Part shown: positions 49,713-55,327 of the stretch, one piece after another
Layout: the number at the start of each line of letters is the position of its first letter
Position numbering within the stretch: the stretch's first letter is position 1
Source: Bacteroidota bacterium
GTDB lineage: Bacteria; Bacteroidota; Bacteroidia; Bacteroidales; VadinHA17
Assembly: GCA_011050615.1 (NCBI GenBank)
Contig: DRFJ01000055.1
Coordinates: 1-64,000 of the forward strand
DNA: 64,000 nt
Direction: 5' to 3'
Translations under genes and position numbers: made by a program
The notes under the pieces: model-generated
The model's database searches: none
What the model saw: only the letters and a program-made list of their open reading frames with translations
What the model was told of the DNA's origin: nothing

Positions 49713-50168
49713 ATGAAGATTACAAAACTACACATTCCAGAAACAAAAAGCGCACCAGAGATTGATTTTAACCCCGATGACGGTATGCTTGTACTTAAGG
49801 GAAAATCTATACCGGAAAACGCAACTAAAATTTATGAACCTATAATTGAATGGCTTAAGGAATATATATTGGATCCGCCTGAAAAAACTTTTCTCCATTT
49901 CAATTTAAGTTACTTCAATACGGCATCGTCAATCTGGATGGCGCGCATGGTTAAAGTACTCTCAAAAATTGATGACAGGGATAAACTACTTACAATAAAT
50001 CTGTACTTTCATGTTGAGGAATATGATGAGATGGATGACGATGATCTCCAGGATTCCATTTCAATCGTCCTGAAAGTGATTCATGATGCAACTGTCAGCC
50101 TGGGAATCAAAATATTCGGGATAGATGATGACGACACCATTGTAAAGGAAAGACTCATTCTTCTCTGA
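49713..50168 (+). CDS. DUF1987 (SiaC-type regulatory phosphoprotein) domain protein
   Basis: The protein has 151 residues and is a single DUF1987/SiaC domain. In Pseudomonas, SiaC is phosphorylated by SiaB, dephosphorylated by SiaA and binds the diguanylate cyclase SiaD. The pattern TKSAPEIDFNPDDGMLVLKGKSIPENA and LHFNLSYFNTASSIWMARMVKVL matches the family; the FNTASS stretch carries the region of the SiaC phosphosite. No siaA, siaB or siaD lies next to it here, so the partner set must be elsewhere or different. The acidic DDDD patches near the C-terminus are notable. Confidence 0.8.
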   Translation: MKITKLHIPETKSAPEIDFNPDDGMLVLKGKSIPENATKIYEPIIEWLKEYILDPPEKTFLHFNLSYFNTASSIWMARMVKVLSKIDDRDKLLTINLYFHVEEYDEMDDDDLQDSISIVLKVIHDATVSLGIKIFGIDDDDTIVKERLILL

Positions 50169-50241: not shown

Positions 50242-51747
50242 ATGAAAGCCATTTATGGATTTCTGATAATGATATTTATGACCATGAATATTTCAGGCCA
50301 GCAGAGAGGGTTTGACAGGGACCCGGTAGTGGCAGGATCATTTTATCCGGCCGGTGAAACAGAATTGAAAAGGCAGCTTGAGCGGCATTTCAGGGATGCT
50401 GCCGCAATGAAGTCTTTTACAGTTAAACAGGGAGAAAGAGTAAGGGCTTTAATTTCTCCGCATGCAGGATACGTATTTTCTGGCACGGTGGCAGCATCCG
50501 CCATAGGATGTATTCCTTCAGAGGCAATATATGACAATATCTTCCTGATTGGTTCAAGTCACAGGCTTTCTTTTCCCGGAGCATCAGTCTATTCAGCGGG
50601 AAATTACAGGACACCACTGGGTACTGTTATTGTTAATACCGATATAGCTGAAAATCTTACAGAAAACTCAGAGATATTCACTTACCTGAAATCCGCCCAT
50701 CTGAATGAGCACAGTCTGGAAGTGCAACTACCTTTTCTGCAGTATCACCTGGGAAGGAATATAAGAATTGTTCCGATTATTATCGGAACACAAAACAGTA
50801 AAATCTGCAAGGACATTGCCGCGGTTCTCAAACCCTGGTTCAATGGGAATAATCTCTTTGTCATCAGCAGTGACTTCAGCCATTACCCTTCATTTGAAGA
50901 TGCAGAAAAAGTGGACGGGCTGACTCTGGAAGGTTTAATGTCAGGAGACCCTGAAACCTTTCTCGGTACCCTCAGGGAAAATTCAGCACTGAAGATCAAT
51001 GGACTTGCAACCAGTATGTGTGGCTGGACATCAGGTCTTGTTCTCCTTCATCTTGCGAAGTCAGAGCCGGGACTGGAATTTAAACACATCCTTTACCAGA
51101 ATTCGGGACACAGCAAGCTGGGTGACCGGTCAGGGGTTGTGGGCTATCATTCCCTTGCCCTCATTGAAAAGGAAGATGCAAGCGCTAATGGCCAGGATTT
51201 CAGTATAGGTCTTGAAGATCAGAACCGCCTGCTTGATATAGCCAGGCAATCAATAAGATCATTCCTGCTTAAAGAAAAACAGCCTGAGATAGATGAATCT
51301 AAGCTATCTCCGTCACTGCTAAAGCATCTGGGAGCCTTTGTCACACTTAATATGGACGGGCAGCTGAGGGGTTGTATAGGCAGGTTCATGCCTTCAGAAC
51401 CGCTTTATGAGACCGTGCATGCGATGGCTCTCGAAGCCGCTTTTAATGATGCACGTTTTAAACCACTCGGCCGGGACGAACTGGAAAAAGTTACAATTGA
51501 AATATCAGTGTTAAGCCCGCTCAGGAGAATTGATAGTACAGACAAAATTGTTCTTGGGAAACATGGTGTTTATATAAATAAAGATAGCCGGTCAGGAACG
51601 TTTCTCCCCCAGGTTGCAAATAACCGGGACTGGACAGTTAGTGATTTTCTTGGTCATTTATCGCGTGATAAAGCAGGCCTGGGATGGACAGGCTGGAAGG
51701 ATGCGGAAATTTATGTATACGAAGCCTTTGTTTTCGGGGAGGAATAA
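50242..51747 (+). CDS. amrB: AmmeMemoRadiSam protein B-A fusion (MEMO1 + AMMECR1 domains), exported
   Basis: The 501-residue protein begins with a signal-peptide-like leader (MKAIYGFLIMIFMTMNISGQ) that would put it outside the cytoplasm. The MEMO1-like domain (about 28-310) keeps the family histidines and cysteine: His74 in ISPHAGYVFSG, His107 in IGSSHRLSF, His157 in HSLEVQLPFLQ, His214 in SSDFSHY and Cys260 in TSMCGW. These resemble the metal or active site of MEMO1. The AMMECR1 domain (about 325-501) has LRGCIGRF at 375-382 and LEAAFNDARFKPL. The trio of MEMO, AMMECR1 and a radical SAM protein is widely conserved but its reaction is not established. It is 5 bp upstream of the membrane protein gene. 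Confidence 0.9.
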   Translation: MKAIYGFLIMIFMTMNISGQQRGFDRDPVVAGSFYPAGETELKRQLERHFRDAAAMKSFTVKQGERVRALISPHAGYVFSGTVAASAIGCIPSEAIYDNIFLIGSSHRLSFPGASVYSAGNYRTPLGTVIVNTDIAENLTENSEIFTYLKSAHLNEHSLEVQLPFLQYHLGRNIRIVPIIIGTQNSKICKDIAAVLKPWFNGNNLFVISSDFSHYPSFEDAEKVDGLTLEGLMSGDPETFLGTLRENSALKINGLATSMCGWTSGLVLLHLAKSEPGLEFKHILYQNSGHSKLGDRSGVVGYHSLALIEKEDASANGQDFSIGLEDQNRLLDIARQSIRSFLLKEKQPEIDESKLSPSLLKHLGAFVTLNMDGQLRGCIGRFMPSEPLYETVHAMALEAAFNDARFKPLGRDELEKVTIEISVLSPLRRIDSTDKIVLGKHGVYINKDSRSGTFLPQVANNRDWTVSDFLGHLSRDKAGLGWTGWKDAEIYVYEAFVFGEE

Positions 51748-51752
51748 ATTTT

Positions 51753-54197
51753 ATGTACCATGTAATACTAATAGGCATTGTTTTTTTAATTCTGTATTTC
51801 CTGACCCTGACCGCCAGTAAATTCAGAATAATCACTGTAAGGGGGCACAGGGCTTTCTGGAATACAATTCTTCTTATTACCTTTCTCACAGCAGCTTCAG
51901 CAGGCATTTTCCTGGCCCTTCAGTCAAACTATAAATGGGAAATACAGTCAGTTGAAAAGATACTTAGCTGGCATGTGGAAGCTGGAATTGCCATGTCATT
52001 TACAGCATTTTTACATCTGACATGGAACCTGGGTTATTACATAAGAATAATTACCGGAGGCGGTGAAAAGAACAGCGTGCCTGTAAATTATGGAGTTAGT
52101 AAGGAGTTATTCTTCAATTACAGGATTATGCTTCTTATACTGGGTTTTATATCCGGTGCAGTCCAGGTCATTTTCCTCAGGGAGATCTTAAACCTGTCAG
52201 GTGGTTATGAAATAGCTACCGGTGCTGTTTTTGCGTTCTGGATAATTATTTCAGCATTTGGAGCCAGGATGGCCGGGAAAAGCAAAAATACAAATCTGGT
52301 AAGCTTGACGGCTGTCCTTCCCCTTGGAAGTATTATTAGCCTGGTTATTTTTATTGTTTTATCCAAAGTCATGATCGAAGAAGGGCTTACACCGGGAATT
52401 ATTTATACTCTTATAATAACCGGCCTTTCATTAATCCCCTTCTGCTTCCTTTCCGGTTTCCTTTTTGTAAGACTTTCCTTCTGCGCCAGTCGTGAGACAC
52501 AATTACTACCGGGCGACTCATTTGCACTGGAAACAACCGGCAGTATGATTGCGGGTATAATTGTAACTATTGTTACCGGAAATATTCTCGGCAATTTCCA
52601 GATACTGGCTGCAGCAATTATTTTATATTATATCGTTTATCTGATTGCAGGCAGATTCAGGTATTATAGAATACTGACAGGCATTGCGGCATTGTGCCTG
52701 GTGGCCGTGATAATATTTAAACCCGATACCTTCGTCAGGAATATCCTGCTGGGCAGTGTCAAGGTTACCCGGAGTATTGATTCCAAATACGGCAATGTGG
52801 CAATCAGTGAATACGAGGGTTCAGGGAGTGTTTTCTATAATCACAGGCTTATAGATTATGAGCAGGATGAAAAGCAGACAGAAGAAAATATTCATTATGC
52901 AATGCTACAGAGTGAGGCCCCTGAAGAAATACTTATTATCTCGGGAGGAGCCGATAAACATATAGGTGAAGTGCTTAAATACCCCTCGGTCAAATCAATA
53001 AGCTATCTGGAGCGTGACCCCGTTTTGATTGCATGCACCAGGGACACAAGCATTAATTACACCAGTGCCGAAGTGGTATTTGAAAATGATGATGCATTCA
53101 GTTATATACGGGGTAGCAGTAAAAAATATGACGTAATAATATCCCTGCTGGCTGAGCCGGAAAATATAGTTACAAACCGATTTTATACAAGAGAATATTT
53201 CCAGGCTATAAAAAGGATAATGTCAAAGGGCGGGATATTCATGCTTAAGGCAGGCGGATCAGGCACTTATTTAAGTGATGAAGAAACCGGGTCCCTTTCA
53301 GCAATATATAATAGCCTGGTCGGGGTATTTTCAAATATTCTTCCCATAAAGGGAGAATCTCTTTACCTGATTTCTTCAGACAGCATGCTGAACGCAAACA
53401 TACCTGATCTGGTAGCAGACCGGGGTATAGAAACCACTTATGTAAACAGCTATTATCTGAGCAGGCAGATTATAAAATTTAATTCCGACCAGGTAGTAAG
53501 TATAATAGACAGTCTTATGCCGGGAAACATGCTGGACAAACCCAGGGCTGTCTTTTACAGGCAGAAGCATCAACTAAAAAAAGCCGGCAGGTACAGGATA
53601 CCTTTTATAGCCGCTATCTGTGTTTTATTGCTTATTCCCTTCCTGACGGGAAACAACAGTTCCAGGACTATGTACAGTGCTGCTTTAAACCTTGCAGGTA
53701 CGGAGTTACTGGCTCTTATCCTTATCCAGTCAACTGCAGGTAATTTCTACCAGCTTGCCGGTTTATTAATAGCTGTTGTTATGGCAGGGCTTGCCATTGG
53801 CAGTGCTTCAGAAATAAAAATAAGTCCGTGGTTAATAGAAATGATTCCCGTAATGCTTGGATTCCTGGCTATAATATTTGCCCTGGTATCGCCATTAATA
53901 CTTGAAATACAGAGTGGTACAATACCAGTAATACTTTCATTACTAATTGTAATTATACCTGCCGTACTGGCCGGGTCCTATTACCGGAGGAAGACCGGAG
54001 AAGAGCTTAGTTCAAAGATTATTTCGGGCATTTACTTTGCTGATATGTGTGGAGCGGCCCTGGGTTTCATGATTATAGCAGGCATACTGGTACCCCTGTT
54101 TGGTATAAAATCGACTTTCTTTATTCTTGCTTTTTTTAATTTTGCCTCATATATTACAAACAGGGTAATAAGTGGTATTGGGAATCTTGTTCAATAA
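51753..54197 (+). CDS. Multi-pass membrane protein with spermidine-synthase-like domain
   Basis: The protein has 814 residues from the ATG at 51753, which follows GGGGAGG by a few bases and the previous stop by 5. About ten membrane helices (1-325), a soluble Rossmann-like domain (about 335-560) and about seven more helices follow. The first 100 residues hold a helix with His74 and His88 in LSWHVEAGIAMSFTAFLHLTW, like b-heme-type DUF4405 domains. The next part has REILNLSGGYEIATGAVFAFW, typical of membrane-fused spermidine-synthase-like proteins. The soluble domain keeps ILIISGGADKHIGEVLKYPSV and YLERDPV, but the SAM-site GGGDGG is degraded and the catalytic DxxDP region reads SLLAEPEN. It is not a functional polyamine synthase by these residues. 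Its place between memo and radical SAM genes suggests it belongs to their system. Confidence 0.75.
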   Translation: MYHVILIGIVFLILYFLTLTASKFRIITVRGHRAFWNTILLITFLTAASAGIFLALQSNYKWEIQSVEKILSWHVEAGIAMSFTAFLHLTWNLGYYIRIITGGGEKNSVPVNYGVSKELFFNYRIMLLILGFISGAVQVIFLREILNLSGGYEIATGAVFAFWIIISAFGARMAGKSKNTNLVSLTAVLPLGSIISLVIFIVLSKVMIEEGLTPGIIYTLIITGLSLIPFCFLSGFLFVRLSFCASRETQLLPGDSFALETTGSMIAGIIVTIVTGNILGNFQILAAAIILYYIVYLIAGRFRYYRILTGIAALCLVAVIIFKPDTFVRNILLGSVKVTRSIDSKYGNVAISEYEGSGSVFYNHRLIDYEQDEKQTEENIHYAMLQSEAPEEILIISGGADKHIGEVLKYPSVKSISYLERDPVLIACTRDTSINYTSAEVVFENDDAFSYIRGSSKKYDVIISLLAEPENIVTNRFYTREYFQAIKRIMSKGGIFMLKAGGSGTYLSDEETGSLSAIYNSLVGVFSNILPIKGESLYLISSDSMLNANIPDLVADRGIETTYVNSYYLSRQIIKFNSDQVVSIIDSLMPGNMLDKPRAVFYRQKHQLKKAGRYRIPFIAAICVLLLIPFLTGNNSSRTMYSAALNLAGTELLALILIQSTAGNFYQLAGLLIAVVMAGLAIGSASEIKISPWLIEMIPVMLGFLAIIFALVSPLILEIQSGTIPVILSLLIVIIPAVLAGSYYRRKTGEELSSKIISGIYFADMCGAALGFMIIAGILVPLFGIKSTFFILAFFNFASYITNRVISGIGNLVQ

Positions 54198-54214
54198 AAA
54201 ACACAAAAGAAGAC

Positions 54215-55327
54215 ATGAAGAAGCGTGAGTTTGTAAAAAACTGTCTTATGGGTGCCGGGGTTATTACTGCCTGCCCTGCACTATTGCATGGCAGCCCGTC
54301 CCGGCATGTAAAGGAGAGGAATTACAGGCTTGCCCTCTTCCAGGAAGAATCGGCTAAGGGCATTATGTGCAGGATATGTCCTAATGAATGTGTCTTAAAA
54401 GAGGGTGAGTTAAGTGAATGCCGGAACCGTATTGTGAGAAACGGCAAATTATATACCATGGCTTATGGTAATCCATGTGCCATCAATCTCGACCCGGTAG
54501 AGAAAAAGCCATTATATCATTTCATGCCTTCCACCATTACTTTCTCCATTGCTACGGCAGGATGTAACCTGGCTTGCCTGAACTGTCAGAACTGGACCAT
54601 ATCCCAGACAAGTCCAGATAAAACACGCAATTCAGATCTAATGCCAGGGAGCGTTATAAGCAATGCTCATAATTATCAGTGTAAATCAATATCCTATACT
54701 TACTCTGAACCAATCACTTTCTACGAATATGTATTTGATTCAGCAACACTGGCCAGGCAATCAGGACTGAGGAATATCCTTGTTTCAAACGGTTATATAA
54801 ACACCGAACCTCTCCTTAAGCTCAGCAGTGTGATAGATGCTGCAAATATTGATCTTAAATCGTTCAATGATAAAACCTACATTAAACTTACCGGCGGAAA
54901 GCTTGAGCCTGTACTTGAAACCCTGAAAATATTAAAAGAAGAGCAAGTCTGGCTTGAAATTACCAACCTGGTAGTTCCCGAATGGACAGATAAAATGGAT
55001 GAGATAAGGGAAATGTGTAAATGGCTGTACTCAAACGGTTTCAGTGACACCCCTCTTCATTTCAGCAGGTTTACTCCTATGTACAAGCTCGAACAGCTTC
55101 CCCCCACACCGGTAAGTATTCTCAACAGGGCATGGGAAATTGCCAGGGAAGAAGGCATTAACCATGTATATATAGGCAACGTACCCGGTACTCATGCATG
55201 TGACACCTTTTGTGATAAATGCGGAGAGAAAGTTGTTGAACGAAGAGGATATACCATTACGGCCAACAATATAGAAAATGGCAGATGCAAATTCTGCAAT
55301 TCCGTAATTAGCGGAGTGTGGGAGTAA
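54215..55327 (+). CDS. amrS: AmmeMemoRadiSam system radical SAM enzyme with Tat-like leader
   Basis: The protein has 370 residues. The radical SAM CxxxCxxC is Cys117, Cys121 and Cys124 (CNLACLNC), followed by the SAM-binding region and IDLKSFNDKTYIKLTGG. Extra cysteines occur before it (CRICPNEC at 52-59, and Cys69) and near the C-terminus (CDTFCDKCGE, CKFCNS), which could hold another Fe-S cluster or zinc. The N-terminus MKKREFVKNCLMGAGVITA looks like a Tat or secretory leader, with KR in place of RR. A leader on a radical SAM enzyme is unusual because it needs SAM and a reductant. It is 17 bp after the membrane protein gene. Confidence 0.88.
   Translation: MKKREFVKNCLMGAGVITACPALLHGSPSRHVKERNYRLALFQEESAKGIMCRICPNECVLKEGELSECRNRIVRNGKLYTMAYGNPCAINLDPVEKKPLYHFMPSTITFSIATAGCNLACLNCQNWTISQTSPDKTRNSDLMPGSVISNAHNYQCKSISYTYSEPITFYEYVFDSATLARQSGLRNILVSNGYINTEPLLKLSSVIDAANIDLKSFNDKTYIKLTGGKLEPVLETLKILKEEQVWLEITNLVVPEWTDKMDEIREMCKWLYSNGFSDTPLHFSRFTPMYKLEQLPPTPVSILNRAWEIAREEGINHVYIGNVPGTHACDTFCDKCGEKVVERRGYTITANNIENGRCKFCNSVISGVWE

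Follow-up and report, generated by a model that had tools for sequence, protein, structure and literature searches.

Can radical SAM chemistry run outside the cytoplasm? This question is raised directly by three adjacent genes found in the window, by which we mean the whole 64,000-nucleotide stretch of DNA, from an uncultured Bacteroidales bacterium, that was analysed. They belong to the AmmeMemoRadiSam system, which is widespread and for which, to our knowledge, no chemistry has been established; two of its parts, MEMO1 and AMMECR1, reach as far as humans. Radical SAM enzymes normally draw on reductants of the cytosol, and we are aware of none that has been characterised as working outside the cytoplasm, of no published explanation for the fuel supply of an exported one, and of no account of SAM availability in the periplasm. 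A literature search, which covered few subscription journals, found no papers on AmmeMemoRadiSam chemistry or on extracytoplasmic radical SAM enzymes. A recent predictor lists AMMECR1 with the most anaerobe-indicative protein families (50.7% of anaerobes versus 3.4% of aerobes; PMC13386939). Judging from its sequences, the window system appears to be an exported variant of this known but unexplained system, and our overall reading, to which we give a probability of about 0.55, is that it is an extracytoplasmic AmmeMemoRadiSam form with an MFS-like partner. A version that is exported and has its own membrane partner is of use in itself, as it narrows the location of the substrate and gives a genetic handle on export, transporter and enzyme.

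Three open reading frames occupy positions 50242-55327 of the plus strand, and the tight packing claimed in the initial annotation is borne out by intergenic gaps of 5 bp and 17 bp (Table 1). All three NCBIfam models of the AmmeMemoRadiSam system (3/3) score above their cut-offs: TIGR04336 (225 bits, cut-off 26) and TIGR04335 (172 bits, cut-off 99) on the first protein, and TIGR04337 (349.5 bits, cut-off 220) on the third. The hallmarks of the system are present in the window as well, namely adjacent genes, the CxxxCxxC motif, the MEMO metal ligands and LRGCIG.

Table 1. Features of the three-gene locus; positions are those of the window.
Feature	Position	Strand	Details and basis
MEMO-AMMECR1 fusion (AmmeMemoRadiSam proteins B + A)	50242..51747	+	501 aa, export leader; TIGR04336, TIGR04335
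Sec-type leader MKAIYGFLIMIFMTMNISGQ	50242..50301	+	lipobox form in some relatives
MEMO domain	50317..51159	+	H74, H107, C260 = metal-ligand positions
AMMECR1 domain	51226..51735	+	LRGCIG motif
Membrane protein	51753..54197	+	814 aa from ATG at 51753; 17 helices
3-helix DUF4405-like module	51753..52088	+	H74, H88; weak family assignment
First MFS-like six-helix bundle + helix 10 (aa 118-322)	52104..52718	+	PepTSt fold match; internal repeat
Spermidine-synthase-like domain (aa 323-614), predicted periplasmic	52719..53594	+	SpeE Z 27.3; topology; acids lost
Helix 11 + second MFS-like six-helix bundle	53595..54191	+	model, hydropathy, repeat
Radical SAM enzyme (NCBIfam AmmeMemoRadiSam rS; NCBI gene name amrS)	54215..55327	+	370 aa; TIGR04337
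Tat-like leader (KREFVK + hydrophobic stretch)	54215..54304	+	leader comparison; TatC in genome
Radical SAM core	54350..55324	+	C117-x3-C121-x2-C124; N- and C-terminal cysteine sets

The first product had been described as a MEMO1-AMMECR1 fusion with a secretory-type leader, and this description holds: Pfam places a MEMO domain at residues 28-305 (PF01875, E=1.6e-57) and an AMMECR1 domain at residues 332-498 (PF01871, E=1.5e-50), in agreement with the NCBIfam matches, behind a Sec-like leader. It is the only MEMO protein encoded in its own genome. The metal ligands of human MEMO1 are H49, H81 and C244 (PMC11081632), which were matched by motif to H74, H107 and C260 of the window protein; these three residues are invariant across 21 aligned sequences, and so is the LRGCIG core of AMMECR1 (R376, G377, C378, G380). 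Among relatives, every MEMO ORF that has a complete 5' end and adjoins the membrane gene carries an export leader (71/71), and the check on leaders in homologues thus came out in favour of export. These leaders are Sec-like in about 50 cases and bear a lipobox-compatible cysteine in about 20, the latter count resting on a loose pattern that takes in some doubtful cases. The four leaderless MEMO ORFs in the leader count are all without the membrane gene.

The third product has its Radical_SAM domain at residues 113-267 (E=5.2e-15), together with two further invariant sets of cysteines, one N-terminal (C52, C55, C59, C69) and one C-terminal (C333, C336, C358, C361). In its structure model (pLDDT 83, weak near residues 20-32 and 117-128) the core is closest to the PFL activase (3c8f) with Z 20.6, the next family reaching 14.9, and sequence comparison likewise points to the pyruvate formate-lyase activating enzyme. 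The window enzyme differs from the latter in its extra cysteine sets, its leader and the lack of a clustered glycyl-radical enzyme, and the PFLA family model stays below its cut-off on this protein (63 of 231.75 bits). The scan of the three proteins and of flanking genes turned up no glycyl-radical enzyme, and so we do not class the radical SAM protein as an activase.

This protein begins with MKKREFVKNCLMGAGVITACPALLHG, which is Tat-like, as previously noted, except that KR replaces RR. In relatives the leader follows the frame S/T-K/R-R-x-F-L/I-K, with KR in 106 of 134 leaders and RR in the other 28, while the S/T, F, L/I and K/R around this pair are kept. TatC is encoded in the window's genome (226.5 bits), where the other Tat-like leaders seen have RR, unlike that of the radical SAM enzyme. 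One could suppose that the leaders are uncleaved N-terminal anchors, so that the radical SAM domain would stay on the cytosolic face and only MEMO-AMMECR1 would be outside. The prevalence of KR would suit such an arrangement, as would two relatives (G381 and G540) with a plain hydrophobic N-terminal anchor helix in place of the Tat-like leader, and the cytosolic location of SAM and reductant. However, an N-inside, C-outside orientation is favoured by the placing of the positive residues ahead of the hydrophobic stretch, the S/T-x-R-x-F-L-K frame is conserved far beyond the needs of an anchor, and the partner's domain is predicted to lie outside. We consider the anchor arrangement quite improbable and keep to export of the radical SAM enzyme as the probable case.

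An AlphaFold2 model (pLDDT 89.4, pTM 0.89) and 17 hydropathy peaks bear out the 17 helices claimed for the product of the middle gene, which are arranged as three, then seven, then a large domain (about residues 323-614), then seven. Residues 118-807 match the POT-family MFS transporter PepTSt (Z 25.8, rmsd 3.8, 352 residues), and six helices of the first half recur as a direct repeat in the second (hhalign 96.7%, E 3.9e-10), in which the conserved acids E260 and D764 align in symmetric helices. The protein thus has the two homologous six-helix bundles of the MFS fold, and from sequence and model we predict an MFS-like 14-helix transporter fold preceded by a 3-helix module. Pfam MFS_1 has no match in the window protein and finds one of 35 relatives at E=0.007, and the NCBIfam model for a 'fused MFS/spermidine synthase', NF037959, gives 16.4 bits, short of its cut-off of 40. 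The initial annotation had suggested either an anchor or a substrate channel. A simple anchor role is disfavoured by the MFS repeat and the conserved acids, and the fold points to a transporter-like role beyond anchoring.

POT transporters carry two extra helices between their bundles. With PepTSt and the NF037959 proteins the window protein has in common a pair of six-helix bundles separated by two additional helices; it differs from them in the large domain placed between these additional helices, one of which flanks the domain on each side. Since this is the arrangement of POT transporters, the inserted domain should face the periplasm. As independent evidence, predicted inside loops contain 24.6 K/R against 5.0 in outside loops, with inside exceeding outside in 57/57 sequences. 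The domain is therefore most likely periplasmic, as far as sequence and model can tell, and both the charge counts and the parity of the repeat speak against placing it in the cytosol.

The N-terminal 3-helix module resembles DUF4405. Its H74 and H88 are conserved, the window protein has N where most relatives have H92, and 20 of 102 relatives lack the whole module. The Pfam DUF4405 model has no match in the window membrane protein and detects four relatives with E values from 5e-4 to 0.008, which do not reach the cut-off; profile comparison (hhalign) gives a probability of 43%, and a HMMER search of DUF4405 proteins with the module profile gave no match. A haem role for this module is only a suggestion.

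With regard to the inserted domain, Spermine_synth is found at residues 380-500 (PF01564, E=3.2e-17; 63.1 bits, cut-off 22.9) and the fold matches spermidine synthase (1uir) with Z 27.3. The claim of a Rossmann-like, spermidine-synthase-like domain is thus correct as to fold, with the aminopropyltransferase acids lacking. When residues are mapped onto spermidine synthase by sequence alignment, the acid position of GGG(D/E)G (400) is L, I, V, P, A or T, and never acidic, in 57/57 sequences. Conservation is also lacking at the catalytic Asp positions: 465 is L, N, A or I, and 468 is mostly P, with E in 8/57 and D in 3/57. Since aminopropyl transfer requires acids that are missing here, we predict that the domain is not a spermidine synthase, and we rejected this activity. 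Unlike a true polyamine aminopropyltransferase it also falls below the cut-off of the speE family model (64 of 249.55 bits) and is predicted to be periplasmic. By the same mapping the positions that contact ribose (E420) and adenine (D447) are kept, and E377, E378 and H381 are too, all being invariant or nearly so; the degenerate glycine loop is a putative SAM site.

Loss of the motif acid is known from another membrane protein. Fungal NHMT, a 7TM protein, carries a fused spermidine-synthase-like methyltransferase; it acts on secreted metalloproteins/copper enzymes, and the absence of its GxG(D/E)G acid has been tested experimentally (PMC10349129). Both are membrane proteins with a spermidine-synthase-like domain devoid of this acid; NHMT, however, is fungal and has only 7 helices, and the likeness was drawn from the domain. 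It is plausible to ask whether the trio is an exported methyltransferase unit, in which the domain would be a SAM methyltransferase acting, as NHMT does, on an exported protein such as MEMO-AMMECR1, with the radical SAM enzyme adding a second modification. Besides the NHMT precedent, the non-acidic position 400, the retained E420 and D447 and the preserved His/His/Cys metal site of MEMO agree with this idea. On the other hand, no methyl-acceptor motif is known, the motif after the fourth strand is LPPP in most relatives but LLAEP in the window, and SAM would still be required outside. We hold such a unit to be rather unlikely.

Alternatively, the middle protein may carry a small molecule, either substrate or product of the pathway, into or out of the cell, with the domain as a catalytically dead, ligand-sensing gate and SAM arriving otherwise. 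The MFS fold with its paired acids in symmetric helices would fit a gated transporter, and so would the missing aminopropyl-transfer acids, but the near-invariance of E377, E378, H381, E420 and D447 is more than a pure gate needs, and the gate also seems unlikely to us.

The membrane protein is present in 37/60 close relatives and in 69/295 genomes of the order, and comparison of genome lists showed that 68 of these 69 also carry the radical SAM family; the exception (G377) has only a fragment of the membrane protein at a contig end. The check on recurrence of the gene order was likewise positive: MEMO-AMMECR1, membrane protein and radical SAM enzyme follow one another in 45 of 55 well-flanked loci, and two further loci have all three genes in a different order. 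The gap is at most 50 bp between MEMO and membrane gene in 62/78 cases, and between membrane gene and radical SAM gene in 56/85. In the close clade the trio is flanked by SiaC, LigA, DUF6913 and DapA, neighbours vary beyond the clade, and no further operon member is co-conserved beyond this synteny. As the order is kept while the flanks vary, the three genes are the unit. Absence of the middle gene elsewhere, which had been named as a point against the proposal, was found in part: in the phylum sample of 296 genomes it occurs in 7, versus 67 with the radical SAM gene, and is thus missing from most AmmeMemoRadiSam genomes, but the loci read without it are of the leaderless, apparently cytosolic kind. 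When plasmids were searched for the membrane protein beyond Bacteroidota, matches were confined to the synthase-like domain.

A gene for a SiaC-like regulatory phosphoprotein lies just upstream of the trio (49713-50168). This gene and the downstream LigA gene are kept in 56 close-clade loci, and their conservation with the trio is probably synteny.

How closely the leader and the membrane gene go together was read from loci picked by the radical SAM gene alone; the larger leader count is biased, because many of its leadered loci were retrieved via the membrane protein, and the radical-SAM-picked set is fairer. It contains 49 ORFs counted as leadered; 44 of these come from genomes that also encode the membrane protein, 34 of them having it at the same locus. 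Among leaderless ORFs 3/24 adjoin the membrane gene, two being second tandem copies and the third that of G540, counted as leaderless by the leader pattern although it is anchored. Five radical SAM genes counted as leadered are exceptions, from genomes without a membrane-gene match (G058, G400, G502, G593, G559). That of G058 is an apparent false leader call, and G400, G502 and G593 are one family, in which the membrane gene was not found; since in these three and in G559 a leadered enzyme was seen and no membrane gene was found, the latter is not strictly required. Within this survey of one phylum and a few plasmid loci, the radical SAM tree shows no more than 4-5 changes each for leader and membrane gene. 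Their association is therefore not independent of ancestry and we claim no significance for it; an independent-contrast test had too few pairs for significance, and common ancestry explains much of the association.

The claim that the whole trio works at the inner membrane or beyond it thus gains from the recurring order, the kept leaders and the membrane gene staying with the leadered version, and is weakened by KR in place of RR and by the tie to ancestry. In the mechanism that we propose, the three proteins would very probably come together at the periplasmic side of the inner membrane, and the radical SAM protein would probably be exported folded, clusters included. With PFL activase as its nearest fold, hydrogen abstraction from a protein is a natural guess for its reaction; tentatively, it may act like glycyl-radical activases, with the AMMECR1 or the MEMO domain as candidate target. 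The MFS-like protein would deliver or take away a small ligand by way of its external domain; it could possibly bring SAM, or another cationic adenosyl/amine ligand, to the outside, where the synthase-like domain would bind it and hand it on, and we put this step forward with similar reserve. Where present, the DUF4405-like histidine module might pass electrons to the radical SAM cluster, which seems very doubtful. Location and partner fold are, on sequence grounds, well supported; ligand and reaction are what we infer. The fullest version would be a self-contained extracytoplasmic radical SAM pathway, in which S-adenosylmethionine is exported by the MFS-like protein and bound by the latter's periplasmic domain, a Tat-exported glycyl-activase-like enzyme uses it to put a radical-derived modification on the exported MEMO-AMMECR1, and, in those family members that have it, a fused b-haem-like module supplies the electrons; we regard it as a long shot.

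A cytosolic-looking counterpart is provided by a plasmid of Ideonella dechloratans (L306:3537-6029), where a leaderless amrB-amrS pair is located near an arsenic-resistance gene cluster. It has the same MEMO-AMMECR1 fusion beside the same radical SAM enzyme, with the same motifs. The Ideonella pair, however, is devoid of leaders and of the membrane gene, whereas the window version has both leaders and the MFS-like partner.

The window's own genome also encodes a leaderless radical SAM paralogue elsewhere. In two other loci (L049:318-2489 and L227) leadered and leaderless paralogues stand side by side, adjoining the membrane protein, possibly as a duplication with different targeting. Two or three tandem leadered radical SAM genes adjoin the membrane protein in G368 and G474 (L249:3449-7266 and L250:3150-5581). 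Finally, in three genomes of the phylum (L161, L169, L182) a leaderless radical SAM gene lies directly 3' of a gene judged from its sequence to be pyruvate-kinase-like, and many sister loci have an upstream ORF of similar size.
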